35,119 nt of DNA, from contig JACMMZ010000100.1 of assembly GCA_014378775.1 (NCBI GenBank), positions 1 through 35,119 on the forward strand, written 5' to 3'. The notes under the pieces were generated by a model, which had not been told where the DNA came from, made no database searches, and saw only the letters and a list, made by a program, of their open reading frames with translations. Of this stretch, positions 3,040 through 34,449 are shown one piece after another; positions within the stretch are counted from its first letter, which is position 1, and each line of letters opens with the position of its first letter. The translations under genes were made by a program, and so were the position numbers. The DNA comes from Pseudobdellovibrionaceae bacterium. GTDB taxonomy: Bacteria; Bdellovibrionota; Bdellovibrionia; Bdellovibrionales; Bdellovibrionaceae.

Positions 3040-3048
3040 GTGACCTCA

Positions 3049-5541
3049 TTAAAAATCAAAATCACTCGTAAACGAGCGACGTAGTGTGTATTTATAAACT
3101 TTATGTAACTTATCATATCGATCTGTACCTTTAGTTTGCTCAAACAGCCTTAACTCAACCTCGCGGTTATTGAATTTATTGGCTTCCTGCGATAGCAAAA
3201 ACTGCAATTTAAACTCTCGGTCTCTCGGATCCTCAGCAGTGCGATCAAAAAGTATTACCTTAGAATCACTAATCAAAACATCGCCACAAAATAAACCTAT
3301 TTTTAATTGCAAAGGGCGAACTTTATTTGAAATTGGTTCTGACTGATACAAGGCCACGGCAAGTTGCCCTGTCGTAATCAGGTGAGATGTTCCACCTAAT
3401 ATTTCAACAGCTACGTAACCAATATCACTTTCACGTTTTTTTCTAATATCTAGAACCGGTACAACGACTTCTTGCAAAGTTGCCCCGCCATGTACGAACC
3501 GAATACTAGAACCCTTTTTTCTAATTCTATTAACCGTCTTTGGTATTGCAAAGGTAACATCACCGATCAAGCCCGCCTGTGCTGCGGTAAAAACTTTAAA
3601 TGAAGAATTGGTAGCTCTGAGATCTTTACCGATAATAAACCGCCTATCAATCTGCAATAACTCACCTTCAATTGAGCTGTCTGACAAGAAGTCACTTTCA
3701 TCTAAATCTTTATCTTGAAACAAAAATCCATGATCGGCGGTTATTAGTATCCGATTTGCATTTGAAGATGTTAATTTCTTAACCATTTTAAGTATTGTAT
3801 CAAATGTACGCTCGACAGCACCAGGCAATGTGTCAGGGTTCTTTCCTGCACTATCAATTTCGTCGTGGTAAAGATAAATAAACGAATGATCTCTAACTAA
3901 AGTCTTCACATCGTCTAAGTGCATGCCTAAGAAATCTGATGACAAAACAACAGTACCGGAATATTTTTCAGTTTCTGAAACAATTTTTCTACGATTATCT
4001 GTGCCCATCGTCGATTTGCCATCGACAAATACAGTTTCAACTTTCTCAGCGTTTAAACTTATTTGATTGTTTGGCAGAAGCGCCGCCATACCCAATTGCG
4101 TATAGCTAGGTAATACTGATTGTGCGAAGTTTATTTCACCCTCATATCTGTTTTCTTGAAGAATTCGATTGTACAACTCTTTACCAGCCTCAAACCTCAA
4201 TGCATCTGAAATAATAACAAATACCTTATAGTTTTTCTCAAGAATTGGTAAAACGGTCTTTCTGAAAAAACATTTTTGGTCTGAAACTCCGCCGTCGTGC
4301 CAATTCGTTAGATTATCAACGTGAGGCTGCCATTCATTATTTAAACGATTTAAAAAATTATTAGTGTACTGGTTTTCAACTTGGTCAATAAGCGGAATCA
4401 GCGGCGATGACTGCCCGCTTTCTCTAACGAAGTAAACAAACTTTCTATAGTTAAGATCCAATTTATACCAGTTATCGGTATACTTAACAAAACCATCCTC
4501 AAAGCTAGAAATTGAAATATTAAACTCACTTAAAAGCTTAAACACATAAGCCGCGTGGTGCACAGCCTCATACATGTCGCTTATGTTTTCTTTATACCAA
4601 TGCGTTTGCTTTCTGAGAGTTATAAACTTAAGGCAGTGCTCTGGGCTTATTGTTTTATTAGCTAAATCATTGATAAGAGTCGTAAGGATCTTTTTATCAA
4701 TAATCTTAAAGTGATCGGCACTTTGAAGCTCTTCCCGAGTTCTGTTTGCCAAATCGTGCTCGATATCTAAGACAGATTCGAACTCTAAAGATAACTTTTC
4801 AAAATCAGTAACGCGTTTACGACTATCTTTCCATTTCTGCATTAAAACAAAAGCATCGCTGTTAAGCTTAGTTTCTTTCTTGATACTAACAAAATAGCAA
4901 GACTTAAAAAGCTCTATTGCAAAGTCTTTGACTGACGGATTATTAGATTTGTAACCATAGTTCTGTTCGAACATTTTCCATAAAAAACTATCTAAACTAC
5001 ACTTCACAACGGAGTTAAATTTTTCCATCTTGTCATTGGCTAAATCAGACAGAAGCTCTTCTAAAACAGAATCAATTCTATCTTCAGCATTGACACAAAT
5101 AGCTAACATCTTCATTCGCAGTGAATTATTACTATCAAAGCCAGGAAGAATCTCTTTAAGTCTGTCACGAAAGCTCTGCTTTTTAAAAAACGCCACATGC
5201 TCTTGCACGAAACTAGCAAATTCAAAACCTAGGCCAATCTCACCTAGCCAAATTGAAAACTGATCGCTTTTGAATTCAGCAAAGGCTAGCTCTAAATCTA
5301 ACATCCAGTTAGATTTTTCCGTAACTCGTTCGCCTTCGCGATATATTAAAAATTTAGTGTCCGGATTTCGGACTAAAACATCGTATTTTATTGTAAACTC
5401 GTTATTGTCTTGAACAAGCTTCTGAACATTATCTAAAGAAAGCGTTTCAAACTCAGAGCGGAGTTCTTTCTTAACATCATTCCAAAAAACAATTCTGTGC
5501 TGTTCGAATAGTTTTTCTAAAGCTAATTTAATTTTACACAT
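3049..5541 (-). CDS. pglZ: PglZ (BrxZ), alkaline-phosphatase-superfamily protein of BREX
   Basis: 830 residues. The C-terminal half carries the PglZ domain: metal-site Asp in VFVIISDALRFEAG (Asp about 446), the LPSYTQLGMAALLP segment with the candidate nucleophile Thr at about 481, YHDEID at about 558-563, and the metal motif TADHGF at about 601-606. The first 400 residues are helical and lack a recognisable catalytic motif, as is usual. PglZ is the signature gene of BREX and Pgl systems and belongs to the alkaline phosphatase superfamily. Its ATG lies 2 bases after the pglX stop with AGAG just upstream, so translation is coupled. The gene is intact. Confidence 0.97.
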   Translation of the reverse strand: MCKIKLALEKLFEQHRIVFWNDVKKELRSEFETLSLDNVQKLVQDNNEFTIKYDVLVRNPDTKFLIYREGERVTEKSNWMLDLELAFAEFKSDQFSIWLGEIGLGFEFASFVQEHVAFFKKQSFRDRLKEILPGFDSNNSLRMKMLAICVNAEDRIDSVLEELLSDLANDKMEKFNSVVKCSLDSFLWKMFEQNYGYKSNNPSVKDFAIELFKSCYFVSIKKETKLNSDAFVLMQKWKDSRKRVTDFEKLSLEFESVLDIEHDLANRTREELQSADHFKIIDKKILTTLINDLANKTISPEHCLKFITLRKQTHWYKENISDMYEAVHHAAYVFKLLSEFNISISSFEDGFVKYTDNWYKLDLNYRKFVYFVRESGQSSPLIPLIDQVENQYTNNFLNRLNNEWQPHVDNLTNWHDGGVSDQKCFFRKTVLPILEKNYKVFVIISDALRFEAGKELYNRILQENRYEGEINFAQSVLPSYTQLGMAALLPNNQISLNAEKVETVFVDGKSTMGTDNRRKIVSETEKYSGTVVLSSDFLGMHLDDVKTLVRDHSFIYLYHDEIDSAGKNPDTLPGAVERTFDTILKMVKKLTSSNANRILITADHGFLFQDKDLDESDFLSDSSIEGELLQIDRRFIIGKDLRATNSSFKVFTAAQAGLIGDVTFAIPKTVNRIRKKGSSIRFVHGGATLQEVVVPVLDIRKKRESDIGYVAVEILGGTSHLITTGQLAVALYQSEPISNKVRPLQLKIGLFCGDVLISDSKVILFDRTAEDPRDREFKLQFLLSQEANKFNNREVELRLFEQTKGTDRYDKLHKVYKYTLRRSFTSDFDF

Positions 5542-5543
5542 TT

Positions 5544-8500
5544 TTACTCTTCATCTTTATCAAGCCCTTTAATTGGCTTTAAAGCCTTTCCAAATTTTTG
5601 ATAATTAACTTTAACACCATCGTCGAGATCAATTTCAAGACGTTGTGTTGCCAATGGGTAAAGTATATCATTTTCATATTCGTCGAGCTCAACAATAGTC
5701 TTCTTTAGCTGCTCAATTTCATTTAAAGCTGCTGTTTTGTCGCGCGAAGAAGAGTCGCCAGAAGCAGACAGTCTTTCAAGATTTTCTTTTTTTATCGAAA
5801 GCTTAGTTCTAAATTCACGAAGATAGCCGTTTAGAACGGTACTTACCGTATCCGAGTTATATCTATGTAAATATATTAATGCATTGAAAGTATTTTTCGG
5901 GCTGGAAAACATCCAATAAATGGGGCGATTTTTATATCTCCGAATATGATCTGCATAAAAATCTTTAAGCAAATACTTATCAAGTGTTGAACCTAAAATA
6001 GACTCAATAAAGTCAATATTTTCATTATGCAACTCAGGCCCAAATAATTCGTTTACAGTCTTCTTTACCATAGTTGTAACATCGTCAGAAAACCAACCCC
6101 CACCAACAAAAGGAACCACATTGTCTTTATCGAGCATGGAGTTAAACATACCTTTTTCTTCAAATTTGGCAGACTGAGAGGGCTGCTTCTTTACCATATA
6201 GCTACTATTTACATAATCAAATCTACCAAAAACAACACCTACAATATATGAAATAAAATCAATAATGATTTCCCTAATATTAATTTTCAATTCTGCGGCA
6301 TCATTTTCCTCAAGATTAATTTTTATTTCGTAAATATTTGCTAGAATCTCGTCATTTATCCGCTCTAGTCTTTTAATTTCCAATTTACTGTCTCTAATTT
6401 TTTGCGATAGTTTTTCAACTGAAATTCTGATGGACTTGAATTCAATAAATTCAAGGAGTGCATTGTATTTAAAATCCATGGATATCTCAGAGCTGTCCCA
6501 CTGTTGTTTAGCTACATCTATCAATTTCGCAACATGTTTAAAATCTCTTTTTTTAAGCTCCGTATACATTATTGGCAGGCTAGATATATGACCAACTTCA
6601 AAGTTCAGGGTCGGGGAAATAGCTTTAAGTATACTAATCGTTACTGAGCTATTACAAAATCCCAATATAAGATTATAATCATCTTTTGAATTGGGGAAAA
6701 TTGATGTTCCTGCCACGTCAAAAATAAAACCCTTTGGATAATACCTAAAAGCCGGCGACGAACTACTGATTTTCGACCAGGAGATAGACTCTTTAAAAAA
6801 TAAGTCGACATTTTGTGGTCGTGACCTGAGCTTGCCTTTTTCATCTTTAAAGTTTTTTATTTCATTTCCATTATTCTCCCATAGTACCACGTTCAGCTGA
6901 TTTCCATACCACTTTAGAAAATCTCCCCCTTTATTGTATGGCACCCATCTTTGCGATGAGGTCATTTCATCTGCAGATGATTTGTTAAAAGCAATCGCAT
7001 CCCTATTAACTTCGAACCAAAATCTAACAAATCTTCCATTTTCTCCTGTTTGTAGCCCTACAACTGCATTTCCATGATCAGAAAGCGGATCACTTTTTGC
7101 GAATGCTCCAACATAAGAAGAGTCTAACCAATATACCAAAGGTATTCCTGGTAAAAGTTGAAATACTGAACTCTTTACTGTATATCGCCATGGTGACAAC
7201 GTATTCGAAATAGCCTCTAGTGTTTTAATTGGTTGCAACTCAGCACCTCTAAAATCAGAAAGCTTAATGTAAATACCTTCACTGTTTGCTTTAGCACAAT
7301 TTCGTATAGTAAAAGCACAAACAGGTATACAGGCCGGCGCAAAAGAATTGTATTCAAGCTGGACTAGAGTCGTTACTGTTTTTTCTTTTAGAATCTTCTC
7401 TCTAAGTTTCTCATAAGAAGATATAAACATCCAAACGTACGGGGTCAAAAAAGCAATATATCCGCTCTTCATAGTCAAATTAAAACTTCTTGCAACAAAA
7501 GATGCAAAGATATCACTTTTTGTATCCTTAAAATTATTCAATAAAAAAAGCTTAAGCTCCGGGTTCAATGCTTTGCCACCCATATATGGAGGATTTGCAA
7601 TCAGAACATGATATCGTGATTTTAAATAAACCGATTGTTTTAATATCTTCAATACCTTTTGATGTGTATTTGAAAAAAATAATTGACCTGAAATACTACT
7701 GTTTTCTAAACTTTTTAAAACAGTATCCACATCAGAAACTTCCGGTATAATGAGTGATCCGAAATTCTCAGCTTGTTCAAATTGACGCAATGTATTTTGC
7801 AGTTGAACTGAAAACAAATCACGCCCAACATTATCGATATAATCTTCAATTTCTTGGTCATGAATAGATACGTTTTCCAAAACACATATCATTGGCTGCA
7901 CAGCAGAGCTAAAATAACGTCGCTGCTTTTCTCTCGCTTTCATTGTTAGCGCAAAAGCTGCTAATTCTCCTGCTCTTTTATCAATTTCAATTCCAAATAA
8001 ATTGTTCTTCAAAATAGCCGATGGAATTTCTTTAGGATCTACGCCATCTTCCTCATACATTGAAAAAAGTAAATCAAAAGCATAGACTAACATATGCCCA
8101 GATCCGCATGCAGGATCACATATTTTAATTTCTTCGGGACCTTTTATTTTTAAAAAATCTGTTACTTCCGATTCCGGTTTTATGAAGTATTCCATCTTTG
8201 AAACAAGATTCGAGCTAGGGCGATTAAGCATCCAAAGAGCGCCTAAGGAATTTTCTACTAAGTATTTAACAATCCAGCTTGGTGTGAATATTTGGGTAGC
8301 CGCAGGGATTTCTTCCTTCTTTACTACTGATCTTCTATTTATAACTTCATCTTTTTTTTCTGAAATGTAGAATTGATATAGCCATCCTATAACCTCAACA
8401 TTATTACAATTTTCTTCATCGAGCGCATGCCTAACTTTAAACACGATTGATGATTCAGATAAAAGGTCGTCAGGCATTAACAGCTCTGTATAGTCGTCAA

Positions 8501-8981
8501 TTTTTTCGAATAAAAAAGGCATGATAGAGTGGTAGTAATTACAAGTCATAATTACCAACCGTCGATAGGCTTCAGCTTGCGGATCTTTTGATAAAGCCTT
8601 TCCTGATAGTAAATTGATTACATGATCACGATCAGTTTCGTTACTTAATTCTTCTTTAATGTGACCGGCTTTGGCTTCTACTAGAATTTCGGGCTGCGAA
8701 TGCGCAGCACTCGTTGGCGAAAGTACCCCAATAAGCGAATACTGTTTTACATCCATGTATCTTAATGCGCAGAATCTGTTGAACCAAGTATAAGCAACTT
8801 TTTCAATGACTTGTTCTTTTGAAGTTGAGGCAATATCGTTTTTTAAGTCATCAACCAATCTAGATTTTGCTCTGACTTCGACGTTGTCAGTTGATAGGTA
8901 GTAGTCAATTTTGTTTGCTACGACATCCAACAAATAGCGTCGTGAATCTTGAGCAAATGACTTTAAAGCTGATGTATCCAT
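5544..8981 (-). CDS. pglX: PglX (BrxX), BREX adenine-specific DNA methyltransferase
   Basis: 1145 residues, typical for type I PglX. SAM-binding motif I is DPACGSGHML at about residues 289-298, and the catalytic amino-methyltransferase motif IV is NPPY at about 463-466. Both are in the gamma-type order (I before IV) seen in large single-chain N6-adenine methyltransferases. The C-terminal 600 residues would hold the target-recognition part. In type I BREX this enzyme marks host DNA at a non-palindromic site so that self is spared, and it is also needed for phage exclusion. The gene has AGGAT before its ATG, follows brxC by 9 bases and precedes pglZ by 2 bases. I see no stop or homopolymer break, so there is no sign of phase variation. 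Confidence 0.97.
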   Translation of the reverse strand: MDTSALKSFAQDSRRYLLDVVANKIDYYLSTDNVEVRAKSRLVDDLKNDIASTSKEQVIEKVAYTWFNRFCALRYMDVKQYSLIGVLSPTSAAHSQPEILVEAKAGHIKEELSNETDRDHVINLLSGKALSKDPQAEAYRRLVIMTCNYYHSIMPFLFEKIDDYTELLMPDDLLSESSIVFKVRHALDEENCNNVEVIGWLYQFYISEKKDEVINRRSVVKKEEIPAATQIFTPSWIVKYLVENSLGALWMLNRPSSNLVSKMEYFIKPESEVTDFLKIKGPEEIKICDPACGSGHMLVYAFDLLFSMYEEDGVDPKEIPSAILKNNLFGIEIDKRAGELAAFALTMKAREKQRRYFSSAVQPMICVLENVSIHDQEIEDYIDNVGRDLFSVQLQNTLRQFEQAENFGSLIIPEVSDVDTVLKSLENSSISGQLFFSNTHQKVLKILKQSVYLKSRYHVLIANPPYMGGKALNPELKLFLLNNFKDTKSDIFASFVARSFNLTMKSGYIAFLTPYVWMFISSYEKLREKILKEKTVTTLVQLEYNSFAPACIPVCAFTIRNCAKANSEGIYIKLSDFRGAELQPIKTLEAISNTLSPWRYTVKSSVFQLLPGIPLVYWLDSSYVGAFAKSDPLSDHGNAVVGLQTGENGRFVRFWFEVNRDAIAFNKSSADEMTSSQRWVPYNKGGDFLKWYGNQLNVVLWENNGNEIKNFKDEKGKLRSRPQNVDLFFKESISWSKISSSSPAFRYYPKGFIFDVAGTSIFPNSKDDYNLILGFCNSSVTISILKAISPTLNFEVGHISSLPIMYTELKKRDFKHVAKLIDVAKQQWDSSEISMDFKYNALLEFIEFKSIRISVEKLSQKIRDSKLEIKRLERINDEILANIYEIKINLEENDAAELKINIREIIIDFISYIVGVVFGRFDYVNSSYMVKKQPSQSAKFEEKGMFNSMLDKDNVVPFVGGGWFSDDVTTMVKKTVNELFGPELHNENIDFIESILGSTLDKYLLKDFYADHIRRYKNRPIYWMFSSPKNTFNALIYLHRYNSDTVSTVLNGYLREFRTKLSIKKENLERLSASGDSSSRDKTAALNEIEQLKKTIVELDEYENDILYPLATQRLEIDLDDGVKVNYQKFGKALKPIKGLDKDEE

Positions 8982-8990
8982 ATTTTTATC

Positions 8991-11900
8991 CTAAATTTGA
9001 ATTTGATTGCCTAGCTCAAGCTCTTTTTTTAATTCAAGCTTAAGCAGTTCGATGTATTGGTCTACTTCAGTATCAGACGACAGTACGGGTTTTTTAAAAC
9101 CGACCTGAATATTTCTTAACTGCACCAATTTAATTTTTTTATCTTCAACAGGCTTGTCACTCATGCTCGCATCAGTGTTAGTTTGAGGAGCCTTTTTTGA
9201 CATCAGACGAGTCAGAATATTATTGTATTCGCTTGATTCAAAGTTCGAAGCAGAGTGCCTGATAATTTCAATGCTGTGCCTTTGCGCTAAACCAGTAGCG
9301 GCTTTATTAAAGATCTGCTCAATGTCTTCTTTTTCAAAAGAGGTCAAAAGACTATACCCTTCTGATTCTTTAATTTTTATTTTTAAAATTTCTAATCGTT
9401 GTTTAACTTCAGAAATTTCTTTGTCTTTTACAGACTTTAATTTGCTAGCAATACTTTCTTTTAAGTCTTTTGCTGTTTTGATTTTGTTACCTAAAAAACA
9501 ACCCGTATCAGCTAAAATAACCGTTACCTGGCTTACTTCTGTTGAATCAATAAAAGAAAAGTTATCAGCCTCTTTAAGTAAAAACTCTTTTACATCTTTG
9601 TAAATGTCTTTTTGCGCGCCCCCCATAAATGTTTCAATTGGCGCTATCGTCTTTTCTTTATAATCTAACAACTGATCTTCGACTTCTTTTAAGTTCGTTA
9701 AAAAATAGCCGTAGTGTTTTTTAGATAGCGAATCGACCAATTCTAATGCGGGGTCAAGTGTTACTAGAAATGAAAACTGATCTTTCTGATAACTTAACTT
9801 TCTTAATCTTTCACCAAGCTCTTTAAACTTTTCAATTGCCTCTTTGGCTAATAATTTAGCCTCTTGAGATTTCGGCTGCTCATCAAAGAAATCCTTGTAA
9901 AAATCTTTCAAGCCCCGTACCTGCGAAGGTGTAAACTCAGCTTGCGATTCAATAATTACCTGTGCATGCATTTGAGAATTTAAAATAGCACGCTCTAAAT
10001 CTTGCCCCTCTAATAAATTGCCATCAAGACGTAATTCAATTTTACCACGCGTACACAGCTTGGCTAGTGTGCACTGGGTGGCAGCCTGAGGCCAACCGTT
10101 AGGCTTGATATTAAAATCACTGATAAGTGATTTTAAAGTCATTCTAATGCCCTTCAGCGCGCTTCGTTGAATTGCGGATAAAACTTCTTGCTCAGACTCG
10201 ATCAAATCATTCGTAAAACTAATTTGACTTGAAGGATTTAAAAAAGCAGCTACCTGTTGTTCCGTATAATTTGTACCTCTCAATAATTGTAAATTCGGAT
10301 AAGTTTTTTTTACTAACTCTACAAACCCTTCGCTAATACGTCCTTTTGGGTCTTTCTGCGAAATATCCAAAACATCTGCACCTGCAGCAATTTTTGCTTC
10401 AGACAATAACTTCTTAAGCCGATCCTCAATGTCAGCTTGTCTCCTGTGATTTTGATCACCTTTTTCTCTTAAAATACGGGCAACTGCATCTTGTTGTGAA
10501 GCATTTGAACTTTGTCTAATATAACAATTAGTTTTTTGGTGCATCATCAGGTCTTTGATCAATCGATCATCCGGAGGCAGAATGACCAGTAACTCACTTT
10601 TAGCAAAAGCCTGATTAAGTATTACTTTTTCATTTCCTGAATGTTCGTGAAATGGAGAAATTATGTGGATCACGAGCTCTTTCTCACGCCCCATGAATTT
10701 ATCATCAAGTTTTCTGGCAAACTCTTTGTCATCTATACCATTTTGATCAAATCTAATTTTTCTGAAACCAAGAATCGAGTCAAAAATAGCTTTCGATAGG
10801 TCTTCAAGTAATAATTGATTGTCTATTTCGGTATTTTTAATTTCTTCTTCGATATCTTTTTCATCGTTAGTCAGAAACTCATAGATCTCGCCATTACGCT
10901 GAATATATGTCTGCTGCTCAAGAAGCGATAAAGCATCTTCTAATTCTTTTTTTAATGCAGGGATTTCTTTATCAAAACTGTCATACATTAAAACCGTAAG
11001 GTTTCGAACAGTGCACTTGAAATCTTTTACGTACTTAACTACAAATAACGCCTTTAACACCTGTATCGCAAACTTATTATCTAAGTTTCTTTCGGCAATA
11101 TTGATAGAGCCTTGAATCTGTGCTTTTAGAGCGGTTCGAAGCCCCTCAAACATGAGGTCAAATGTTGCAAGCCTTCCGACTTCTTTAGTTGATATTTGTT
11201 TTGCAACCTGCTGGAAAACACCAAGCATAGATCTTTCACCGACCGCTGTATGTTTACCTTCAAAGGCGTTATGCTCTGACAGTTGTTGTATGCTGGTTTG
11301 AAATAAATCAAATTGGTACGGTATGAATGGGTACGAAGCAATGAAGTGCTCTTTGTCTTTAAAGTTTTTATAAACTTTTGCCCCGTCTGCAAAATCGAAT
11401 AGCGTTTTAAAATTATTATGTTGCCTGTCGTAGAGTTTTGCTAATTCAGCTTTAGAGGCTTCAGTTTTACTGAGTAATCTAACTTGTATAACTTCGGAAA
11501 CGTCTGTGCTTGTTAATTTCAGTCTGTTTTCAAATCTGGCTTGAATTTTAGTAAAGTCATTACCTTGCTTCTTTGTCATGTCTCCAAGAATTGAATTCAT
11601 GTCTTCTTGCGCTGTTACAATCAGCCAAGATCTACCTTTACACTTTGTATTCAAACTTTCTGCTATTGTTTGCAGATTTGTCATAAGTTTTACATTGTCT
11701 GCAATGTACTGCCCGACTTCATCGACAAAGAAATTCAAGCGAAAATCTTTTCCTTTTTTGTTGATGTAGGCGTTTACTTGATCAGCAAAATCTTCAATCG
11801 AAAGTCTGTATTCGGTTCGATATTTTTCAAGAATACCGTCGGAATTTGAGTCTGAAACAGCATTAAAAGCAGCGTCTATATGTTTCTTTTCTAAAATGGC

Positions 11901-12482
11901 TTGCTGGCGACCTTGCTCCCAGTCTTTGCCGGCGGCTTTTTTAAACTCATCCTTAAACTTTGCTAGAATGCCACGAGAATCTAAGTCACGCTCAAATTGT
12001 GCGATATAGGATTGTTTGCCAAAATATCCGCAGGTTTCATCAAAGACCTTCACAAACACAGACAGCAATGCATCGACTTGATCTTTTCTAATAACATCTG
12101 CTTTCTGATCGATATTAAAAAGAATACTTTGCGAAGATATTGATGCGGCCTTTTCAATTTTTGCTTGCAACAATCTGTCTTCTTTACATTTAGCGATAAA
12201 CATTTCTTTAACTGAAACTCCATCAACAGTTTTGTTTTCTAAAAGCAAAGAAAGCATTTTTAGTAAGTGGGATTTACCAGAACCAAAGAAGCCAGATAGC
12301 CAAGCACCGTTTGCACCTTGATAATTGTTATAGGCCTCTAAAAATGAATCCAAACGCTTAGCAACTTCGTTTGTTAATACATATTCTTCAATTTCGATTT
12401 TTAAACTTGAGGCATCGTCAGCCTTAATAACACCTTCAATTGCTCGATCAACCGGTTTTAAAAATATATCTTTTAATAACAT
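8991..12482 (-). CDS. brxC: BrxC, large P-loop ATPase of BREX
   Basis: 1163 residues, near the usual 1200. The N-terminal ATPase module has Walker A GFFGSGKSH at about residues 64-72 and Walker B FFVDEVGQYI at about 251-260. The remainder is largely helical with coiled-coil character, and there is a lysine- and glutamate-rich tail. BrxC is a DUF499/PglY-like ATPase essential for both protection and methylation in the systems studied. An AGAGG ribosome site sits six bases before the ATG. The gene follows brxB by 12 bases in the canonical order. No damage is seen. Confidence 0.96.
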   Translation of the reverse strand: MLLKDIFLKPVDRAIEGVIKADDASSLKIEIEEYVLTNEVAKRLDSFLEAYNNYQGANGAWLSGFFGSGKSHLLKMLSLLLENKTVDGVSVKEMFIAKCKEDRLLQAKIEKAASISSQSILFNIDQKADVIRKDQVDALLSVFVKVFDETCGYFGKQSYIAQFERDLDSRGILAKFKDEFKKAAGKDWEQGRQQAILEKKHIDAAFNAVSDSNSDGILEKYRTEYRLSIEDFADQVNAYINKKGKDFRLNFFVDEVGQYIADNVKLMTNLQTIAESLNTKCKGRSWLIVTAQEDMNSILGDMTKKQGNDFTKIQARFENRLKLTSTDVSEVIQVRLLSKTEASKAELAKLYDRQHNNFKTLFDFADGAKVYKNFKDKEHFIASYPFIPYQFDLFQTSIQQLSEHNAFEGKHTAVGERSMLGVFQQVAKQISTKEVGRLATFDLMFEGLRTALKAQIQGSINIAERNLDNKFAIQVLKALFVVKYVKDFKCTVRNLTVLMYDSFDKEIPALKKELEDALSLLEQQTYIQRNGEIYEFLTNDEKDIEEEIKNTEIDNQLLLEDLSKAIFDSILGFRKIRFDQNGIDDKEFARKLDDKFMGREKELVIHIISPFHEHSGNEKVILNQAFAKSELLVILPPDDRLIKDLMMHQKTNCYIRQSSNASQQDAVARILREKGDQNHRRQADIEDRLKKLLSEAKIAAGADVLDISQKDPKGRISEGFVELVKKTYPNLQLLRGTNYTEQQVAAFLNPSSQISFTNDLIESEQEVLSAIQRSALKGIRMTLKSLISDFNIKPNGWPQAATQCTLAKLCTRGKIELRLDGNLLEGQDLERAILNSQMHAQVIIESQAEFTPSQVRGLKDFYKDFFDEQPKSQEAKLLAKEAIEKFKELGERLRKLSYQKDQFSFLVTLDPALELVDSLSKKHYGYFLTNLKEVEDQLLDYKEKTIAPIETFMGGAQKDIYKDVKEFLLKEADNFSFIDSTEVSQVTVILADTGCFLGNKIKTAKDLKESIASKLKSVKDKEISEVKQRLEILKIKIKESEGYSLLTSFEKEDIEQIFNKAATGLAQRHSIEIIRHSASNFESSEYNNILTRLMSKKAPQTNTDASMSDKPVEDKKIKLVQLRNIQVGFKKPVLSSDTEVDQYIELLKLELKKELELGNQIQI

Positions 12483-12494
12483 GTGTGCCTCTTT

Positions 12495-13097
12495 CTAAAC
12501 TTCACAATGAAAAACGTTAGTTGCTCTGTAATATTTATCGTCATGTAGCTTGCCAAACAAATCTAGACTTGACCCCATGGTTACAGAGTATGAATAGTCG
12601 CCAGGAAAGAACATGACAGTTGGATTATCTTTAGCGACCTTTTGCAGATTATTCAGAACATTATGGGATCTAATATATGGGTATACTTCGCCAACTCCTG
12701 AAATGAATAATATATCGTGCTCGTTTTTCTTGATCAAATCTGCAATATATGGAACAAGTTCATTTTCAGGATCTAGAGTGTTTTGCAATAGTTCTAATAA
12801 TTCATCTTTTGTGAACTCTTTTTCACGGCCAATAATTTCATCAAAGATACCACGCAACTTTAAAAGCTCGATGGAGATTAAATATAAATCTATATTCAGC
12901 ACTTGTACGCCTTGGGTTCCGAGCTTTGTTACCAGCTGTTTCTGCACACGCTTCATCTCAACTGCATCTTTAGGGCTAAATGGACAAATGAAAAAAGGGA
13001 TATCATTGCCTGGCCCTTCTTTTTTTAAAAAACGCTTACTTGAGAATAATTTTAATAGATGGTTAAATTTTTCTTCTATGGTTGATGTTTCGATCAT
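12495..13097 (-). CDS. brxB: BrxB, DUF1788-family BREX protein
   Basis: 200 residues, the family's normal length. It starts MIETSTIEEKFNHLLKLFSS and ends with a segment typical of DUF1788 (VMFFPGDYSYSVTMGSSL, then a short loop and YYRATNVFH). The biochemical role is not known in detail, but BrxB is a core type I BREX component required for defence. It begins 4 bases after the brxA stop and is followed by brxC. Assignment rests on length, sequence pattern and position. Confidence 0.93.
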   Translation of the reverse strand: MIETSTIEEKFNHLLKLFSSKRFLKKEGPGNDIPFFICPFSPKDAVEMKRVQKQLVTKLGTQGVQVLNIDLYLISIELLKLRGIFDEIIGREKEFTKDELLELLQNTLDPENELVPYIADLIKKNEHDILFISGVGEVYPYIRSHNVLNNLQKVAKDNPTVMFFPGDYSYSVTMGSSLDLFGKLHDDKYYRATNVFHCEV

Positions 13098-13101
13098 TTT
13101 T

Positions 13102-13746
13102 CTATTCCGTAATTTTTCTTATTTGTTCATCGGTCAAAGGGAAAACAGTTAGCGCTCGTTGAGAATTTTTGCCTAAGGTCTTTGCCAAAGTTTTAGAAAT
13201 GTAAATGTTGTTAATAATATCGTTTGCCATAATAATTTCAGCTTCTTTAAGCATCCGAAATAAAACTTGTCTGATTTTTTTTAATGTGTTCATTGTTAAC
13301 TTATCGAGTTCAGGATGCCAATCGGCTTTTTGGTTGAAGAACATGTCAAAATCTTTGTGCGTAACTAACGGCTGAAAATGTAAGTGCTTTTCTCTAATAA
13401 CTTCGACGGCAAATTCACGAATGAATCGGTGCTTTCTGCATGCGCTAATCCACAATAATTGTCTTCGGTCTGTTGTTGAACCCTTTACTAAAAGTTCAAT
13501 TTCTAAATCGTTTAATTGTCGAAGTCTTAAAACTATTTCTCTTAGATAGCGGTCTAACGAAGCTCGCGTTTTCGCTTGTATTTTATTGTTATGAGATACT
13601 AAAGTTTTAACTTCATCCCAGTTTTTTGAATGTAGGTATGCTTCGGCTACAGCAGTAGATTCAATTAAAAACAATCCCCCCGCTATAAAAGACATGCTGT
13701 ATTCTGAATCTGACATTAAACTCTGCTTTCTGATTTCAAGATCCAT
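13102..13746 (-). CDS. brxA: BrxA, DUF1819-family BREX protein
   Basis: 214 residues. The N-terminus YSMSFIAGGLFLIESTAVAEAYL matches the DUF1819 pattern of BrxA, a small all-helical DNA-binding protein at the start of type I BREX operons. Its ATG shares one base with the stop codon of the preceding HTH gene (TAATG arrangement), so the regulator and brxA are translationally coupled. The downstream order brxB, brxC, pglX, pglZ, brxL is complete. The gene is intact. Confidence 0.94.
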   Translation of the reverse strand: MDLEIRKQSLMSDSEYSMSFIAGGLFLIESTAVAEAYLHSKNWDEVKTLVSHNNKIQAKTRASLDRYLREIVLRLRQLNDLEIELLVKGSTTDRRQLLWISACRKHRFIREFAVEVIREKHLHFQPLVTHKDFDMFFNQKADWHPELDKLTMNTLKKIRQVLFRMLKEAEIIMANDIINNIYISKTLAKTLGKNSQRALTVFPLTDEQIRKITE

Positions 13747-17541: not shown

Positions 17542-19164
17542 TTAAATATTTATTACGTTTTTTAATTTAATCAAATCATCACTTTTGCTAATCACGTCCA
17601 CATCGCAAAGAAGATCAATAAATGCATCAAGCCGGTCAGCCATCCAAGGAACTTCCCTTGTACCAATATCAGTTGTACCTTTCGTTGGTACAATTCCTTT
17701 GTCGTCTAAAATAAATCTTATTTTTTGTGATTCCCCATCAAACCTCGATAGAGCAATGCGTATATGTTGTGAAAATATTAACTCTTGAAAAAGTTCATTT
17801 AAGAGTTGTTTTAAATCTAATGTAGATCTTTTATCGATCCAGCCTATAAACCAAGAAATGCTGACTCGATCTGAATCCCCGTATTTTAGAAACGGGACTT
17901 TAATTTCGTCAATCCCCCAAGACTTAACTCGAAGATACCATCCAATTAAAAGGCTTATCGCTCGCGCAGAATTATTCGCATCTTCAGACTCATCAACCTC
18001 TAAATACTCAAAAAACTTATGTTGAAAATGCACAGTATTATTCCAAAGTTTGCTTGTTTCACTTAAATCAATAGTCTTATTTTTAGTAAGCTTGCCACAT
18101 TCAATATTTAATAATTCTGCAAAACTTTGAGTCGAAATGTTACATTTGGTAAGTTCATCAATAGCACGTAATGAAACTTCCTCTATTGAATGGCAACCCT
18201 CAATGAGAGATTGCTCAAAGAATACCAGTAGTTTTTCTAAAAAATACCTTTGATATTGTCGTGCCATAAAAACAGCCCAAATTTTACGATGCTTTTCAAG
18301 TTCGTCGGATAAATTTAATTTTTTACCGTTTGTCATTAGACCGGTATACCAAATCATCCTTAGATCCCAGCCGTCTATCGGACCAACTTGTTCAATTGTA
18401 CTAATTATGAGTTTTGCTGTAAGTCTTCTTTTAAAACCAGAGTCATTTGCTTCAGTTGGTAAAAGTTTTTTTAAAAATGATTTCTTAGTTGCAAGATCAA
18501 AACTTAGGAAAGAGCTCGCACAAAGCCCATGATTACCCAAGTCAGCAGCCTCGTCTTCGTTAATTTTATGATCCTTACTAATTTTTAATTTTTTATAAAA
18601 TCGACTTTCAATTAAGTGTTTCTCTAATGCTGTCATTAATTTTTTGGTGTCGTCATCTTCACTTGTTAATGGTATCCCCGTTGAAGAGCCATCGATTGCA
18701 GCTGCTGGAAACTTCTGAAGCAGTTCCATGTACTTCAATGCAGGGCCATAAAGCGGGGCAGCATAAATACTTGTGGCCTCTGTTCTTTTAACTTTTTCGA
18801 AACTAACTGGACATGGAAATTTGACTTTTTGGCCATTGCCAATTCTATTTTTAGGTTTACCAAATAAAGCGTGAGTATCGGATCCATCTGTCATATGTGA
18901 CGAAAAAATTATTTCAATATATTGTCTAAATAAATTAAAATTTGATATATTAAATTCTGCATTTTTCCAAAGTTGAGTGAACTTCCACGGTATCCAGGCC
19001 CCTACACAAAAAGAACCTGCATCTCGAGTTTGGTTATTAAGACCTGGTAGTAGCTCGTCGCTTAGAATGCCAAGATTCACAAGTCTCAATCCTAGGAAAT
19101 CTACACCACCACCTTTGTCGGAAAAATCTGTCGTAAGAAATGGTTTTTCTGGAAATGTATTCAT
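17542..19164 (-). CDS. Unknown 540-residue protein, translationally coupled to a PLD-type nuclease gene
   Basis: The ATG at 19164 overlaps the stop of the PLD gene in an ATGA arrangement; a longer upstream start would lie inside the PLD coding region. The N-terminus has a Gly- and Leu-rich block (GGGVDFLGLRLVNLGI, then LLPGLNNQTRDAGSF and GAWIPWKF). It recalls the start of DUF6361-type proteins (sirda..lFPGts..q..aRYflfvpW), but only distantly. The rest is helical, with several Trp-rich segments (LLIGWYLRVKSWGI, SWFIGWIDKR). No nuclease or ATPase motif was found. The strict coupling implies a joint function with the PLD protein, perhaps as a target-recognition or scaffold subunit (inference). 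Confidence 0.85.
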   Translation of the reverse strand: MNTFPEKPFLTTDFSDKGGGVDFLGLRLVNLGILSDELLPGLNNQTRDAGSFCVGAWIPWKFTQLWKNAEFNISNFNLFRQYIEIIFSSHMTDGSDTHALFGKPKNRIGNGQKVKFPCPVSFEKVKRTEATSIYAAPLYGPALKYMELLQKFPAAAIDGSSTGIPLTSEDDDTKKLMTALEKHLIESRFYKKLKISKDHKINEDEAADLGNHGLCASSFLSFDLATKKSFLKKLLPTEANDSGFKRRLTAKLIISTIEQVGPIDGWDLRMIWYTGLMTNGKKLNLSDELEKHRKIWAVFMARQYQRYFLEKLLVFFEQSLIEGCHSIEEVSLRAIDELTKCNISTQSFAELLNIECGKLTKNKTIDLSETSKLWNNTVHFQHKFFEYLEVDESEDANNSARAISLLIGWYLRVKSWGIDEIKVPFLKYGDSDRVSISWFIGWIDKRSTLDLKQLLNELFQELIFSQHIRIALSRFDGESQKIRFILDDKGIVPTKGTTDIGTREVPWMADRLDAFIDLLCDVDVISKSDDLIKLKNVINI

Positions 19165-21824
19165 GATTCCCCAATTTCTAAAATTGAGTAAAGTTTTGTT
19201 GATACCAATATAGAACCACACGAAGAGCAAATCACAGGCATTAACTCTGTTATCAATCTAAATTCGGGATTAATAGTATATCTATTTGAACAGCCTTCCG
19301 AAATGCAATAATTTTGCCCATCACGAGCTTTGATTATTACTGGCATACTTCTTTCGGCCCTATGACGTAGCTTATTTAAACTAGGCTGTGATATTTCTGA
19401 AATGCTTTGAAACAAATTCCATTCTTTATTTTGAACGATTTCTAATATTTTTTTAGTAAGCGCTGCACCTTTTATCTCGGAAACGTTGAAATTTCTTAGC
19501 TGCTCGGCAGCAGATTCAAAATCTGTCATCAATATGCCATCGTTATTTGCCGATAAATAATTTCTAAAAAAACTCTTCAATCGATCTGTGTTAGTAAACA
19601 ATGATTGCATCTTGTTTCCTGAGATTTGCTTATAAGCAATCCAGGATTTGATTGGAAATCTTTTTTTGGTTTTTTTATTTTGTGACATCAAATAAATGAA
19701 GAAGTACAAATAAGTGAGCATAGTTTCTTCCGGAGGAAGAACTTTATATTCAGAATAAATATCTTCTGCAATTGCTGGGAAGGGTTCGCCTTTGTATCGA
19801 TTTCCTTTTGGCAGCACATAGCCCTCCCACGCGGATCTATCAGCAAACAACATTTCAATAAATGACTCACATAGTTCTGCAACCGACTCCGTTTCTACTG
19901 TGTATTTCGAAGACACTCCAACTACACTACGGACCCTTAAACAAATAAGAGCCATTATTGTACACCGTGGCCAAATATTTAAAGAATCTTTCTCAGAGAC
20001 TATGCAATCGCTGAGATGGCCCCATAAGTAGTACAATTGATCAATGGTAATTTTCCAAATTTTATTATATTTGCCTATTTTCTTAGGTGGCTCTTTGGCT
20101 ACTACTGATGCTGCGTTAGTTTCATCTTCCGTGTCCCCATCAGCATTATTAATTGTAGTATTGTTAAATTCAAACTTAGAAAAATGAGCAAATATCGATT
20201 GTAACGTTTGAATGTCATTAAATCTTTTAGAATTTTTAATCCCTTGATCTAAATTATCAATTTGTATTGGCGGCCATATTGCTATTTTGTCTATGATAGT
20301 ATTTTTTTCATCACCAAGAGCTTTTGCGTTCGTATTTTTTATTACAACTTCACCGTTAATACTGGATTGATTCAAATCCTCAAAAAAGTAATCTACAACC
20401 AATGAAGTAAGTGCCGTCAAATCTAAGTAGTCAGGCGTCGCTTCACCAGATAGCAGGGCCATAGCCCCACGCAAAGCATTTCTCTGAGATGGCCCAGTTG
20501 AAAGACTAACAATGTCATTTACAAAACTAATGCCTTTTAAAGCTTTACCCTCAATACTCTGACAATCTATCGATATTGTTGCAGCCTGAAACCTTCTGGA
20601 AGCCTCGGTAATATTTTCTGGCCATTTTATTTTAAGTTTATAATTTTCTATCTTTTCAGTAATCTTGACGGCACCCCTTTGTAAGCCGATTTTAATTAAG
20701 ATACTGATTTTATCTATTGGGAAGTTTTTTTGCGCAGCCTCGTCGAAGTTAATTTCAATGAATTCACCTGATGTAGATGCAAAAAAATTTAATGAACCTA
20801 CGTTTGTTTCTGGATTTGACCTAGATATTTGACGACAACCCTCATACTTACCGGATTTATTCGAAAAATAGTCAAGAATAGTTTTTGAATTGGTTTGTCT
20901 TAATAATCCTGCTTCAAAATTAGATCCGGACAATGCTGCTAAAGTACAATTAGCACTACCGCTAAAAATCCAACTTTCTTTTTTATTTAAAATTCCATAA
21001 AGTTTAAGGTGATGAAACCCCTTTTTATCTAAATCCCATTCTCTTAATTCGACGTTTTCAATTTTCTTAACATCTGAAATATCAAAATCGATTTTATTGT
21101 CCTGATCTAAACCTGGATATAAATAAACTTTTTTAGGCTCGAATTTTGTAATGAATAACCTTATGCCGGCAACCTCGCCTCCAAAGTACGGCGCCCCAAT
21201 ATAAAGATCAGAAGCTTTTTCAATTGGCAATTGCTCTAAAATTGTTTTTCGTGAATTGTTAATAAAATGCAACTCTCTGCTCGGATTTTTCTCATTAGAT
21301 TTATGTACATTTAGTTCCCCCAATATTGAATTGATGTATTGCACTTGAAAAGATGAACTTTGTTTTATATTTGACCATTGCTTAACTAGACCCTCTAAAA
21401 AGTCGACACTATCTGCAACCAATTCTCCGGTTAATGAATCACCGAACTTTCCATGAAAAGAATCAAATATCTCTACGTTTTCAATAAAGCCCGATTGTGT
21501 AAGGTTGCCACTACCCACGAGCAGAGCGAACTCTACCTCATTAAACATGATCCACACTTTAGGGTGAAATGATCCTTTACACGGCACAGCTGTAACCACA
21601 TAGTCTTTACCTGCTGACCTTAAAGCAGGTGCTTCCTGAAATGCTCTGGCCACGCCGAGTGAGTCGGCCAAGATCATACACTTCTCGAGCTTTTCCTTAT
21701 TTATTCTGGAAAAAACTGTAGACTCGAAAAATGCCAAGCTTAACGTGTAAGATGTACCTAAAATATGTGTGGGGCTAAATAATTCAAAAAAGTCTGAAAG
21801 TGGAATTCTATTAATTTCAGACAT
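19161..21824 (-). CDS. PLD/HKD-family nuclease-like protein with C-terminal Cys4 motif
   Basis: 887 residues from the ATG at 21824. A TTG six codons upstream is possible, but neither start has a strong ribosome site. Two HKD half-sites are visible: SFHPKVWIMF (His87, Lys89) with GSGNLT at 104-109, and HHLKLYGI (His272, Lys274) with GSANCT at 289-294. This is the duplicated arrangement of phospholipase-D-superfamily nucleases. The middle is an unrecognised beta-rich region, and 350 helical residues follow. Near the end Cys840-x4-Cys845 and Cys866-x2-Cys869 could bind zinc. The gene is first in a three-gene minus-strand operon and may be a DNA or RNA nuclease effector (inference). No helicase is encoded nearby. 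Confidence 0.88.
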   Translation of the reverse strand: MSEINRIPLSDFFELFSPTHILGTSYTLSLAFFESTVFSRINKEKLEKCMILADSLGVARAFQEAPALRSAGKDYVVTAVPCKGSFHPKVWIMFNEVEFALLVGSGNLTQSGFIENVEIFDSFHGKFGDSLTGELVADSVDFLEGLVKQWSNIKQSSSFQVQYINSILGELNVHKSNEKNPSRELHFINNSRKTILEQLPIEKASDLYIGAPYFGGEVAGIRLFITKFEPKKVYLYPGLDQDNKIDFDISDVKKIENVELREWDLDKKGFHHLKLYGILNKKESWIFSGSANCTLAALSGSNFEAGLLRQTNSKTILDYFSNKSGKYEGCRQISRSNPETNVGSLNFFASTSGEFIEINFDEAAQKNFPIDKISILIKIGLQRGAVKITEKIENYKLKIKWPENITEASRRFQAATISIDCQSIEGKALKGISFVNDIVSLSTGPSQRNALRGAMALLSGEATPDYLDLTALTSLVVDYFFEDLNQSSINGEVVIKNTNAKALGDEKNTIIDKIAIWPPIQIDNLDQGIKNSKRFNDIQTLQSIFAHFSKFEFNNTTINNADGDTEDETNAASVVAKEPPKKIGKYNKIWKITIDQLYYLWGHLSDCIVSEKDSLNIWPRCTIMALICLRVRSVVGVSSKYTVETESVAELCESFIEMLFADRSAWEGYVLPKGNRYKGEPFPAIAEDIYSEYKVLPPEETMLTYLYFFIYLMSQNKKTKKRFPIKSWIAYKQISGNKMQSLFTNTDRLKSFFRNYLSANNDGILMTDFESAAEQLRNFNVSEIKGAALTKKILEIVQNKEWNLFQSISEISQPSLNKLRHRAERSMPVIIKARDGQNYCISEGCSNRYTINPEFRLITELMPVICSSCGSILVSTKLYSILEIGES

Positions 21825-21970
21825 ATTCTTTATCGCATCCAATCTGTTTTAATTCGCAAGGTATTTCCCGATAGCGCTTATTCAGCGAAACTTTTTAAAT
21901 AAGAATTTGTTAATTAAAACACAGTTTGTAAATGCCGAGTATTAAAGGCTAATTTGGATCTGGACTATTG

Positions 21971-24574: not shown

Positions 24575-24588
24575 CGTTACGTGCTGCT
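24575..24588. repeat. Leader motif CGTTACGTGCTGCT, copy 1
   Basis: Identical 14-mer to 26115-26128. On the minus strand both copies are followed by a similar AT-rich stretch containing AAAATATA and ATGGA(A)GAATA before a gene. The motif is probably part of a duplicated 5' regulatory leader. Confidence 0.45.
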
Positions 24589-24629: not shown

Positions 24630-25520
24630 TTAAGATTTTAAGCCAGTTATCTGATGATTTTCGGAATTAAAGTTTGCAAACCATACGTCAGCCCGCTTGA
24701 ACAAACCGTGACTTAAGTTTTTTTCGTTTTCAAATAGGGTAAAGCGAATTGTGTCATCTGCATTTTCGTCATAATATTTTTTTCGATAAATTAAGACTAA
24801 TTTGTCAATAGATCTGAAATCGCGAATTTCTCTTAAATCTGTTGGAAGTGGTCTTTTGTCCAACCTAGATTCCATTCCTAGATTAATCTGACTAGCTACA
24901 ATGACGACTAAATTAAGATCTGTGGACATTGTTTTAAGATTCTTTAAAATGTCTTCAACCTCAAGTAATCGATTCGGGAATTTTTGCTCACTATTTAGCA
25001 ATTGAATATAATCTACAAAAACATACTTGAGTGTTGATTGTTGTGCTTTATAAAGCTCAACACGTTTTCTTAAGTCTTGTACTGACAAAGTGTACGAATC
25101 ATCAATTTCTGCTAGGCCATTTGAAAATGAACTAAAGCCTATTGCTGTATCTTGCTGACTTCTGTACATAGCATTTAGACTTTTAATGCCAACGTCGGAT
25201 TGCAGCGATTGCCATCGCTGCAAAGCCTTTGCTTTACTTAGTTCTATTGAAAAAAAGAGGCTTTTGTATTCTTTGAATTCAGAAACTTCATCTAATAAGT
25301 TGAGCATAACAGCCGACTTACCCATACTGGGTCTGCCCGCAATTATGACTAATTTCGAAAAGGTTTCATTGCCAACCAATGCTTCAAACAGAGGTTTCGG
25401 TTTTTCAATAAACGCTTTTAACTTAAAACTGTTTTCCGTATTTGCGATTGCCTGTGCTGTATTAAATAAAGTGTACAGCGGAAATAATCCGGCAAATTTT
25501 ATGAGTGTTCGTCTTTTCAT
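24630..25520 (-). CDS. DnaB/RecA-type ATPase domain with an apparent twin-arginine signal peptide
   Basis: 296 residues. Residues 1-26 (MKRRTLIKFAGLFPLYTLFN then TAQAIA) form a textbook Tat signal: RRTLIK, a hydrophobic core, then an AxA site. The rest matches the C-terminal ATPase domain of DnaB: Walker A GRPSMGKS at 62-69, the FFSIELS element at 88-94, Walker B VFVDYIQLL at 166-174, SQ at 209-210 and KRPLPTDLRE at 221-230, then LIYRKKYY. The N-terminal DnaB domain is absent. AAAGGA precedes the ATG. A replicative-type ATPase sent to the periplasm is not expected, so the N-terminus may instead be a membrane anchor or an unprocessed helix. Neighbours are unknown small genes on the same strand. 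Confidence 0.85.
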   Translation of the reverse strand: MKRRTLIKFAGLFPLYTLFNTAQAIANTENSFKLKAFIEKPKPLFEALVGNETFSKLVIIAGRPSMGKSAVMLNLLDEVSEFKEYKSLFFSIELSKAKALQRWQSLQSDVGIKSLNAMYRSQQDTAIGFSSFSNGLAEIDDSYTLSVQDLRKRVELYKAQQSTLKYVFVDYIQLLNSEQKFPNRLLEVEDILKNLKTMSTDLNLVVIVASQINLGMESRLDKRPLPTDLREIRDFRSIDKLVLIYRKKYYDENADDTIRFTLFENEKNLSHGLFKRADVWFANFNSENHQITGLKS

Positions 25521-25571
25521 TTTAATTTCCTTTCAAAAATATTATCAAACAGTCATTCTTTTATAGCTCAA

Positions 25572-26024
25572 TTAGATTTTCGATTTCTCTACCGCCAATA
25601 TTGCCTTTATTAACTGATCTAAGCGCATGTGACCCAATTTTTGAAACAGTCTTGATTGCCAGTAACTTGCCTCCGAACCAGCCTTGATACTTAAACTCGT
25701 CGATGTTCCTAGCGTTTCAATTGTTTCACTCACTTCATCCTCTCGAACATCTAAACACTTTAAAGCAAGATCTAAAATTTTTTGGTACTGCGACATAGGT
25801 AACTTATGCCGTGTCACGGATTCGTCATCATGATTTGGGCGTACTAGTCGCAAATAATCATTGGCTGAACCGGTCGAGGTGATGATTACGCCAGGGTGTA
25901 CAACTTCAAACTTTTGCTCGGTACTTTTACCGAAACACGGGAGTATATTGGTTTGTAGGGTAATTGAAATATCTGAAATATTAATTAGATCATCAGCTTT
26001 TACGGTAATAGTTTTTTTGCTCAT
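25572..26024 (-). CDS. Unknown 150-residue protein upstream of the DnaB-like ATPase
   Basis: Start set at ATG 26024, which has AAAGGA six bases before it; the upstream ATG at 26039 lacks a ribosome site. Mixed beta and helical protein (MSKKTITVKADDLINISDIS, later ASYWQSRLFQKLGHMRLDQL). No membrane segment and no recognised family. It is followed after 51 bases by the Tat-signal ATPase gene, so the two are likely co-transcribed. Confidence 0.6.
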   Translation of the reverse strand: MSKKTITVKADDLINISDISITLQTNILPCFGKSTEQKFEVVHPGVIITSTGSANDYLRLVRPNHDDESVTRHKLPMSQYQKILDLALKCLDVREDEVSETIETLGTSTSLSIKAGSEASYWQSRLFQKLGHMRLDQLIKAILAVEKSKI

Positions 26025-26114
26025 TTTTGATCCTTTCATTTTAATTTCGCAAAGCTCGGCGCCAGAGCAATATAAACATTCCCATTATTCTTCCATTTAT
26101 ATTTTCTTATTCTG

Positions 26115-26128
26115 CGTTACGTGCTGCT
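26115..26128. repeat. Leader motif CGTTACGTGCTGCT, copy 2
   Basis: Second copy of the motif at 24575-24588. Here it touches the stop codon of the DUF2779 gene and precedes the 150-residue gene by about 90 bases. Confidence 0.45.
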
Positions 26129-30466: not shown

Positions 30467-30468
30467 AT
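30431..30468 (+). promoter_or_regulatory. Inverted repeat ATAGCATC/GATGCTAT embracing the start codon
   Basis: Eight-base arms at 30431-30438 and 30461-30468 enclose 22 bases. The right arm includes the first two bases of the ATG at 30467. No Shine-Dalgarno sequence is visible. It may be an autoregulatory operator or an RNA hairpin that hides the start. Confidence 0.45.
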
Positions 30469-31612
30469 GTCATACAAAAGAGATTTCAACATACCGAAGA
30501 CAAGCTTTTTTCTACTGGGCCCCAGGGGCTCTGGCAAAACAACCATGCTTAAGAATTTGAATTTCGCGAGCCACACGATAGATTTGCTTGATAGCCAAAA
30601 TTTTCGCAGGCTTTCAGCCAATCCGCATTTATTGTATGAAGAACTATCAAGTTTAAAAGCGAATTCTTTTGTTATAATAGATGAAATTCAAAAAATTCCA
30701 GAGTTACTGAATGAGGTCCATCGCTTGATTGAAAATAAAAAAATTAAATTTGCATTAACCGGATCAAGTGCAAGAAAGCTTAAATCTGTTTCAGCAAATT
30801 TACTGGGTGGACGAGCCGCTTTAAAATACATGTACCCATTAACTCCGCATGAAATGGGTGCTGATTTTAATTTAAATCAAGCGCTTGAACTAGGGACGTT
30901 ACCGTTAATTATTAAATCTGATGACCCTGAAGAAACTTTAAAATCGTATGTCGATCTGTATTTAAAAGAAGAAATACAGGCTGAAGCTTTAGTTCGAAAC
31001 TTATCTGGTTTTATTAGATTTTTACCGATCGCGGCTTTGATGCATGGCCAGAAAATTAATTTATCATCGATTGCCCGTGATTCAGAAGTTCAAAGAGCTA
31101 CCGTTCAAGGTTTTTTTTCAATCCTAGAGGACACACTTCTTGTCAGAAGACTCGAAGCCTATCAAGCCAAAATAAGAGTTCGAGAGCAACAAAAAGCGAA
31201 ATTTTATTTTATTGATCCCGGCATTGTGCGCTCTTGCAAAAACATAAAAGGTGAAGTGGCTGCCGAAGAAAAAGGAAGCTTATTCGAAGGTCTTATTTTT
31301 ACCTTACTTACAATTCAAAAAGAAATGCATCAAGATATAGACAGTCTTCATTACTGGTCGCCAGCCGAAGCAAAAAATACAGAAGTCGATTTTTTAATTT
31401 CAAAAGGAAAAGGAAAAATTGCCGTCGAAGTTAAGTCTGGCACACAAGTTAGTACTGCAGATCTAAAAGGACTTAAGGCCATCACAGAATTGAAATCAGT
31501 TAAGCGAAAAATAATTGTTTACAATGGAAACACAAGCCGAACTACCGCAGAGGGAATTGAAATAATGCCCTTTAAAACTTTTATAAATGAACTCGCGAAG
31601 AAAAATATATAA
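30467..31612 (+). CDS. AAA ATPase with DUF4143 domain
   Basis: 381 residues, the usual length of this family. N-terminal AAA domain: Walker A GPRGSGKT at 18-25, Walker B FVIIDEIQ at 68-75, and sensor LTGSSARKL. The C-terminal DUF4143 part has the PD-(D/E)XK-like ending TEVDFLISKGKGKIAVEVKSG. Members are widespread, often horizontally transferred ATP-binding proteins of unknown role, sometimes proposed to act in defence or toxin-like functions. It is a single-gene unit between two tRNA-Glu-end-like junctions. Confidence 0.93.
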   Translation: MSYKRDFNIPKTSFFLLGPRGSGKTTMLKNLNFASHTIDLLDSQNFRRLSANPHLLYEELSSLKANSFVIIDEIQKIPELLNEVHRLIENKKIKFALTGSSARKLKSVSANLLGGRAALKYMYPLTPHEMGADFNLNQALELGTLPLIIKSDDPEETLKSYVDLYLKEEIQAEALVRNLSGFIRFLPIAALMHGQKINLSSIARDSEVQRATVQGFFSILEDTLLVRRLEAYQAKIRVREQQKAKFYFIDPGIVRSCKNIKGEVAAEEKGSLFEGLIFTLLTIQKEMHQDIDSLHYWSPAEAKNTEVDFLISKGKGKIAVEVKSGTQVSTADLKGLKAITELKSVKRKIIVYNGNTSRTTAEGIEIMPFKTFINELAKKNI

Positions 31613-33961: not shown

Positions 33962-34012
33962 TATTATATAGAACATATGTTCTTAAAACAAGAACATATG
34001 TTCTATATAATA
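33962..34012. promoter_or_regulatory. 51-bp perfect dyad operator containing two AGAACATATGTTCT palindromes
   Basis: Arms of 23 bases (33962-33984 and 33990-34012) are exact complements around AAAAC. Each arm holds its own 14-bp palindrome AGAACATATGTTCT, and a further half-site TAGAAC follows at 34011-34016. It overlaps the promoter of the winged-helix gene, so the regulator probably binds here as two dimers. Confidence 0.85.
33963..33991 (-). promoter_or_regulatory. Promoter of the winged-helix / nucleotidyltransferase operon
   Basis: Minus strand: TTGTTT (33986-33991), 17-base spacer, TATAAT (33963-33968). Both boxes lie within the dyad, and the start codon is about 18 bases beyond the -10 box. 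Confidence 0.75.
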
Positions 34013-34173: not shown

Positions 34174-34449
34174 CTACTTCTAAGTAATTATCCAAAACAT
34201 CGAGCTCAGATTTACGATCAAAAAAATTCGAAATATCAATAAATTTTTCTATTTTTCATCGGGGATAATTTTCGGTGTGACCGATTTAATAATAAAGGAA
34301 GCTTTCTTCATGAAATATGAAGCTTTCTTCATGAAATATGAAGCTTCGGCGACAAATATTCCAAGATCTTCAAGAACCCCGTTATCAGCCTTTTCCAATG
34401 CCCTGTAATATTTCTTACGGTCATTTTTTAAAATAGAAACTTCACCACA
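34148..34449 (-). pseudogene. C-terminal remnant of a Fic-family protein, frameshifted
   Basis: Two overlapping minus-strand frames. The first (34249-34449) reads SILKNDRKKYYRALEKADNG, the conserved post-catalytic segment of Fic proteins, and ends at TAG. The second (34148-34252) continues IEKFIDISNFFDRKSELDVL to TGA inside repeat B. The catalytic HPFxxGNGR region is missing, since a stop closes the frame upstream at 34450. An in-frame 21-bp tandem duplication adds ASYFMKK. This is a dead gene end. Confidence 0.7.
34298..34346. repeat. 21-bp tandem repeat, 2.3 copies
   Basis: Unit at 34298-34318 is repeated exactly at 34319-34339, with seven bases of a third copy. Being a multiple of three, it duplicates seven residues in the Fic remnant. 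Confidence 0.9.

Follow-up and report, generated by a model that had tools for sequence, protein, structure and literature searches.

The 35,119-nt stretch of DNA analyzed here (the window) encodes a protein, Tat-DnaB, in which a twin-arginine-type N-terminal signal is followed by a linker and a RecA-fold domain of the DnaB C-terminal type. On sequence grounds, and with moderate confidence, we consider Tat-DnaB to be a Tat-targeted, probably cleaved, single-domain NTPase that derives from DnaB, is not replicative, and is carried as accessory island cargo. The presence of RecA-fold, replication-type motors outside the cytoplasm is unexpected; if Tat-DnaB is indeed exported, a piece of the replication machinery may have become an extracytoplasmic protein, raising the questions of how an NTPase can operate with little ATP at hand and whether there are bacteria that hold nucleic acid-handling machinery in their envelope.

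The sequence preceding the gene, TTTTGAAAGGAAATTAAA-ATG, is a good Shine-Dalgarno site. Translation from a downstream start, which the earlier note on this DNA had named as evidence that would speak against Tat export, was checked and found unsupported: the sole in-frame ATG, GTG, or TTG codon between the start and Walker A is TTG48, which lacks a Shine-Dalgarno sequence, and ATG66 falls within Walker A itself. The protein scored 139.4 bits against the DnaB_C superfamily model (PF03796; gathering cutoff, 27 bits; E = 1.8e-40) and has a RecA fold. In the AlphaFold model (pLDDT, 77), most of the ATPase domain is confident, while residues 1 to 40, a stretch in which alignment depth is absent, have a pLDDT of <50 and include a low-confidence helix at residues 16 to 30. 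Searching the PDB by sequence and searching by fold both ranked DnaB first, the best Foldseek matches to the model being DnaB structures (E = 3.7e-22). The coordinates of the gene and its neighbors are given in Table 1.

Table 1. Positions of Tat-DnaB, its parts, and adjacent features in the window
Feature	Position	Strand	Basis
Tat-signaled DnaB_C ATPase (Tat-DnaB), 296 aa	24630..25520	-	PF03796, 1.8e-40 over residues 55-255; AlphaFold, Foldseek
Tat-type signal peptide, residues 1-26: KRRTLIKF, hydrophobic core, A-Q-A-I-A end	25443..25520	-	Sequence; G047 alignment; rule and shuffles
Shine-Dalgarno region AAAGGAA, 5' of the Tat-DnaB ATG	25527..25533	-	
RecA-fold ATPase domain (residues 55-255): Walker A, E93, Walker B D170, Q211	24756..25358	-	
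ORF X (orphan), 155 aa, 5' of Tat-DnaB, same orientation	25572..26039	-	
DUF2779/RNase_H_2/Cas4-like protein, 495 aa	26127..27614	-	
14-bp direct repeat AGCAGCACGTAACG, downstream copy	24575..24588	-	
Upstream copy of the 14-bp direct repeat AGCAGCACGTAACG (overlaps the DUF2779 gene end)	26115..26128	-	

Residues 1 to 26 of Tat-DnaB read MKRRTLIKFAGLFPLYTLFNTAQAIA and share with Tat substrates (TIGR01409/PF10518) the RR-x-[FL]-[IM]-K motif, a hydrophobic core, here an uncharged stretch of ~18 to 20 residues, and an A-x-A end. We applied an approximate, simplified TATFIND-type rule to 258 background ORFs, each at least 200 aa long; Tat-DnaB conformed to it along with just two others, one (L028) resembling a Tat sulfatase and the other (L033) having a typical Tat-like start, as did only 6 of 20,000 shuffled Tat-DnaB N termini. 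The curated Tat HMMs (TIGR01409 and PF10518) did not match this N terminus, indicating that the signal is somewhat atypical. The same genome encodes TatC (E = 5.1e-71) and at least one other clear Tat-type substrate, MNRRSFIQTALTITGALAFLPLIA. Redox proteins, cofactor proteins, and folded hydrolases make up most of the known Tat passengers; no DnaB-type passenger was found in the literature searched. A published study (PMC7174725, citing Chang et al. 2011) states that deletion of Tat impairs the growth of Bdellovibrio both in the presence and in the absence of prey.

A homologue with 36% overall identity to Tat-DnaB is encoded by G047, a genome from the same order but a different family. Its N terminus is MKRRTFMKFLSLAPAATLFHNSEALA (a longer stretch reads MKRRTFMKFLSLAPAATLFHNSEALASNA), and when the two N termini are aligned, the RR motif, the hydrophobic core, and the A-x-A end superpose position for position, with MKRRT, KF, L12, P14, TLF, and A24-x-A26 identical in both. 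The region following RR scored 41, against a mean of 21 for shuffled sequences, a similarity equaled in 10/5,000 and 6/5,000 shuffles under two schemes. The G047 N terminus conforms to the Tat rule if His is treated as uncharged, and it falls slightly below the cutoffs of the curated Tat HMMs (16.0 of 16.7 bits and 17.4 of 22.7 bits). Conservation of the RR and core among homologues, the check suggested in the earlier note, was thus confirmed, together with that of A-x-A, in the one family homologue found. The description of the N terminus as Tat type, made there from the window sequence, likewise stands: the ORF is exact, its start is supported, the rule applies, and the homologue begins in the same way.

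The description of the remainder as an otherwise complete DnaB C-terminal domain was borne out only in part. As in DnaB (PF03796; PDB 4esv, 6kza, and 3bh0), the RecA-type fold carries Walker A (GRPSMGKS), the catalytic Glu (E93), the Walker B Asp (D170), and the motif-3 Gln (Q211), and the Walker A Lys and the other three residues are also kept in the G047 protein. DnaB has an N-terminal domain where Tat-DnaB has the Tat signal; only ~54 residues precede the ATPase domain, the first 26 being the signal, which leaves no DnaB N-terminal domain plus linker. DnaB proteins carry a single-stranded-DNA (ssDNA)-loop motif, ESGxIEQDxD, and a finger motif, KxR(N/H/D)G. Among 56 comparison sequences, the former was present in its strict form in 44 and the latter in 49; the window and G047 proteins have neither, nor the N-terminal domain, and Tat-DnaB has LREIRDFRSID in place of LRE[SA]GxIEQDxD. 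Loss of the N-terminal domain and of both motifs argues against a processive hexameric helicase, and the score against the DnaB equivalog model (TIGR00665) was 143.6 bits, versus a cutoff of 385.25. The G047 protein terminates just past an arginine near the finger position, an early C-terminal end; that arginine may be retained, and the G047 copy may be a shortened version.

Homologues were sought in 141 genomes of the order and, more widely, in 369 from the phylum. Among the matches listed from the 369 phylum genomes, the G047 protein was the only other one to align from residue 1, so that the family has two known members in this set. The window and G047 proteins appeared in the phylum search at ~1e-56 and the next listed match at 6e-12, a gap indicating that no close members are hidden. 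No family member with the Tat-DnaB N terminus was found in phages, plasmids, or IMG/VR, or among the matches listed from GTDB contigs; a pattern combining an RR start with Walker A gave five matches in IMG/VR, none of them a Tat-DnaB. In a tree built from ATPase C-domain columns, with the signal region left out, the window and G047 proteins formed a clade (support, 97/73; 98% of bootstrap trees), a grouping that we count as support rather than proof, since both branches are long. The G047 protein scored 93 bits against the window protein and no more than 73 bits against the plasmid and phage DnaBs listed, a comparison that is indicative only, since the scores come from different programs.

Other single-domain DnaB relatives are distinct from this pair. 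Stand-alone proteins of the PRK05973/NF004629 type resemble Tat-DnaB in consisting of a single DnaB-like ATPase domain (~250 to 300 aa), but Tat-DnaB scored 45.3 bits against a cutoff of 156. Small DnaB-like proteins from three genomes (G058, G104, and G118) were considered as family members and rejected, the two read in their entirety having no Tat signal. Those of G058 and G104, genomes of the same order, are probably of the PRK05973 type; they instead have a soluble MKLSxPIxxLK...EAL leader and occupy a separate branch of the tree. A plasmid-encoded DnaB_C protein of Aeromonas (WP_182951797.1, pWP2-W18-CRE-05_5) is similar in size (~295 aa) and likewise has a single DnaB_C domain; unlike Tat-DnaB, it has no signal, retains intact ESGxIEQDAD and KNRHG motifs, and adjoins trfA, and it is therefore probably a plasmid replication helicase.

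Judged from its sequence context, the Tat-DnaB location is accessory, patchy, repeat flanked, and near a DUF2779 nuclease-like gene. The AGCAGCACGTAACG pair flanks ORF X and Tat-DnaB and occurs in exactly two copies in the 2.34-Mb genome, even when one mismatch is allowed; of the 15 exact direct repeats of at least 14 bp in the window, it has the highest GC content. This unique flanking repeat suggests that ORF X and Tat-DnaB were inserted as a 1.54-kb unit. No integrase was identified for the putative unit, and in G047 the gene lacks a flanking repeat of this kind. A search for relatives of ORF X found none, and its single-sequence structure model was meaningless. DUF2779 genes are present in 32 of the 141 genomes of the order and lie close to Tat-DnaB in both genomes that have it: one gene away in the window and 5 bp away, tail to tail, in G047, the two DUF2779 proteins being 45% identical. 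Scanning the flanks of the other DUF2779 genes in the order revealed no further DnaB-type Tat-signaled ORF. In G047, the ORF upstream of Tat-DnaB (L022 8778-9461, minus strand) combines a RelE toxin with an HTH domain.

If the favored reading is correct, Tat-DnaB would fold before leaving the cytoplasm, as transport by Tat demands, and might already have bound nucleotide by then; TatABC would export it, with a cut probable after A26. Outside the cytoplasm, it would bind or hydrolyze NTPs rather than act as a processive helicase, its likeliest role being that of island cargo whose targets in the periplasm are nucleotides or nucleic acid; it might, for instance, form a barrier against incoming DNA or help to scavenge released nucleotides. 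The periplasm is poor in ATP, which counts against an exported ATPase; the folded protein might carry its nucleotide out, use nucleotides or nucleic acid released in the envelope, or have a structural nucleotide site. A more specific proposal, that Tat-DnaB is an envelope-located nucleic acid or nucleotide factor of a defense or mobile island, partnered with DUF2779, forming a periplasmic counterpart of intracellular defense, is speculative, and we think it unlikely.

The earlier note had offered two options, real export or an N terminus that anchors the ATPase at the inner membrane, for instance to sense incoming DNA. Retention of RR, core, and A-x-A in the homologue, the lack of a plausible later start, and the presence in the genome of TatC and of another Tat-type substrate support the first. 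The second, in which Tat would recognize the signal but leave it uncleaved, so that the protein stays anchored by its N terminus in the inner membrane with its ATPase facing the periplasm and might sense incoming phage DNA, is not favored, and we give it rather little weight. The length of the hydrophobic stretch and the location in a BREX-containing defense island are compatible with it; however, A24-x-A26 resembles a signal peptidase site, and its alignment in both proteins favors cleavage over a permanent anchor, while Kyte-Doolittle values over 18 residues (1.1 for the window and 0.87 for the G047 signal) are low for a stable anchor. As for the sensing of incoming DNA, the defense island setting alone speaks for it, and loss of the ssDNA-loop motif speaks against it.

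Tat-DnaB might instead be cytoplasmic, with RR and the hydrophobic segment forming a helix for oligomerization or partner binding, comparable to the linker helix of DnaB, and the likeness to Tat signals accidental. This would place the ATPase where its substrates are obvious and would fit both the AlphaFold helix and the failure of the curated HMMs to detect the window N terminus. We nonetheless regard it as improbable: the G047 homologue shows the same RR, spacing, core, and A-x-A, few shuffles conform to the Tat rule, and the low pLDDT of residues 1 to 40 also counts against such a helix, though alignment depth was absent there. Finally, Tat-DnaB could have arisen by chance, through recombination that joined a DnaB C-terminal fragment to a Tat signal, and now be decaying with no selected function. 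Its rarity, flanking repeats, and long tree branch and the early end of the G047 copy are in line with such an origin, which we consider very improbable, given that two open frames at 36% identity keep both the catalytic residues and the signal, pointing to long maintenance under selection.

The window also encodes a DUF2130 protein and a complete type I BREX operon (967-13746, minus strand; BrxA, BrxB, BrxC, PglX, PglZ, and BrxL) whose BrxL has a C-terminal PLD-like MIT_C domain (PF16565). A paper on BREX diversity (PMC12839542) does not mention DnaB. Two large overlapping uncharacterized ORFs at 17542-21842 (minus strand; 562 and 893 aa) are a possible defense pair, the 893-aa ORF showing weak PLD-like/ZacB-type similarity, and an AAA_14/DUF4143 protein at 30467-31612 (plus strand) matches the PADLOC candidate PDC-S01 (7e-53). 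Toward the end of the window, a palindromic 14-nt sequence, AGAACATATGTTCT, occurs as a pair at 33970 and 33991, 21 nt apart, and a 28-nt direct repeat, GAAGCTTTCTTCATGAAATATGAAGCTT, occupies 34298-34346, its copies also 21 nt apart.
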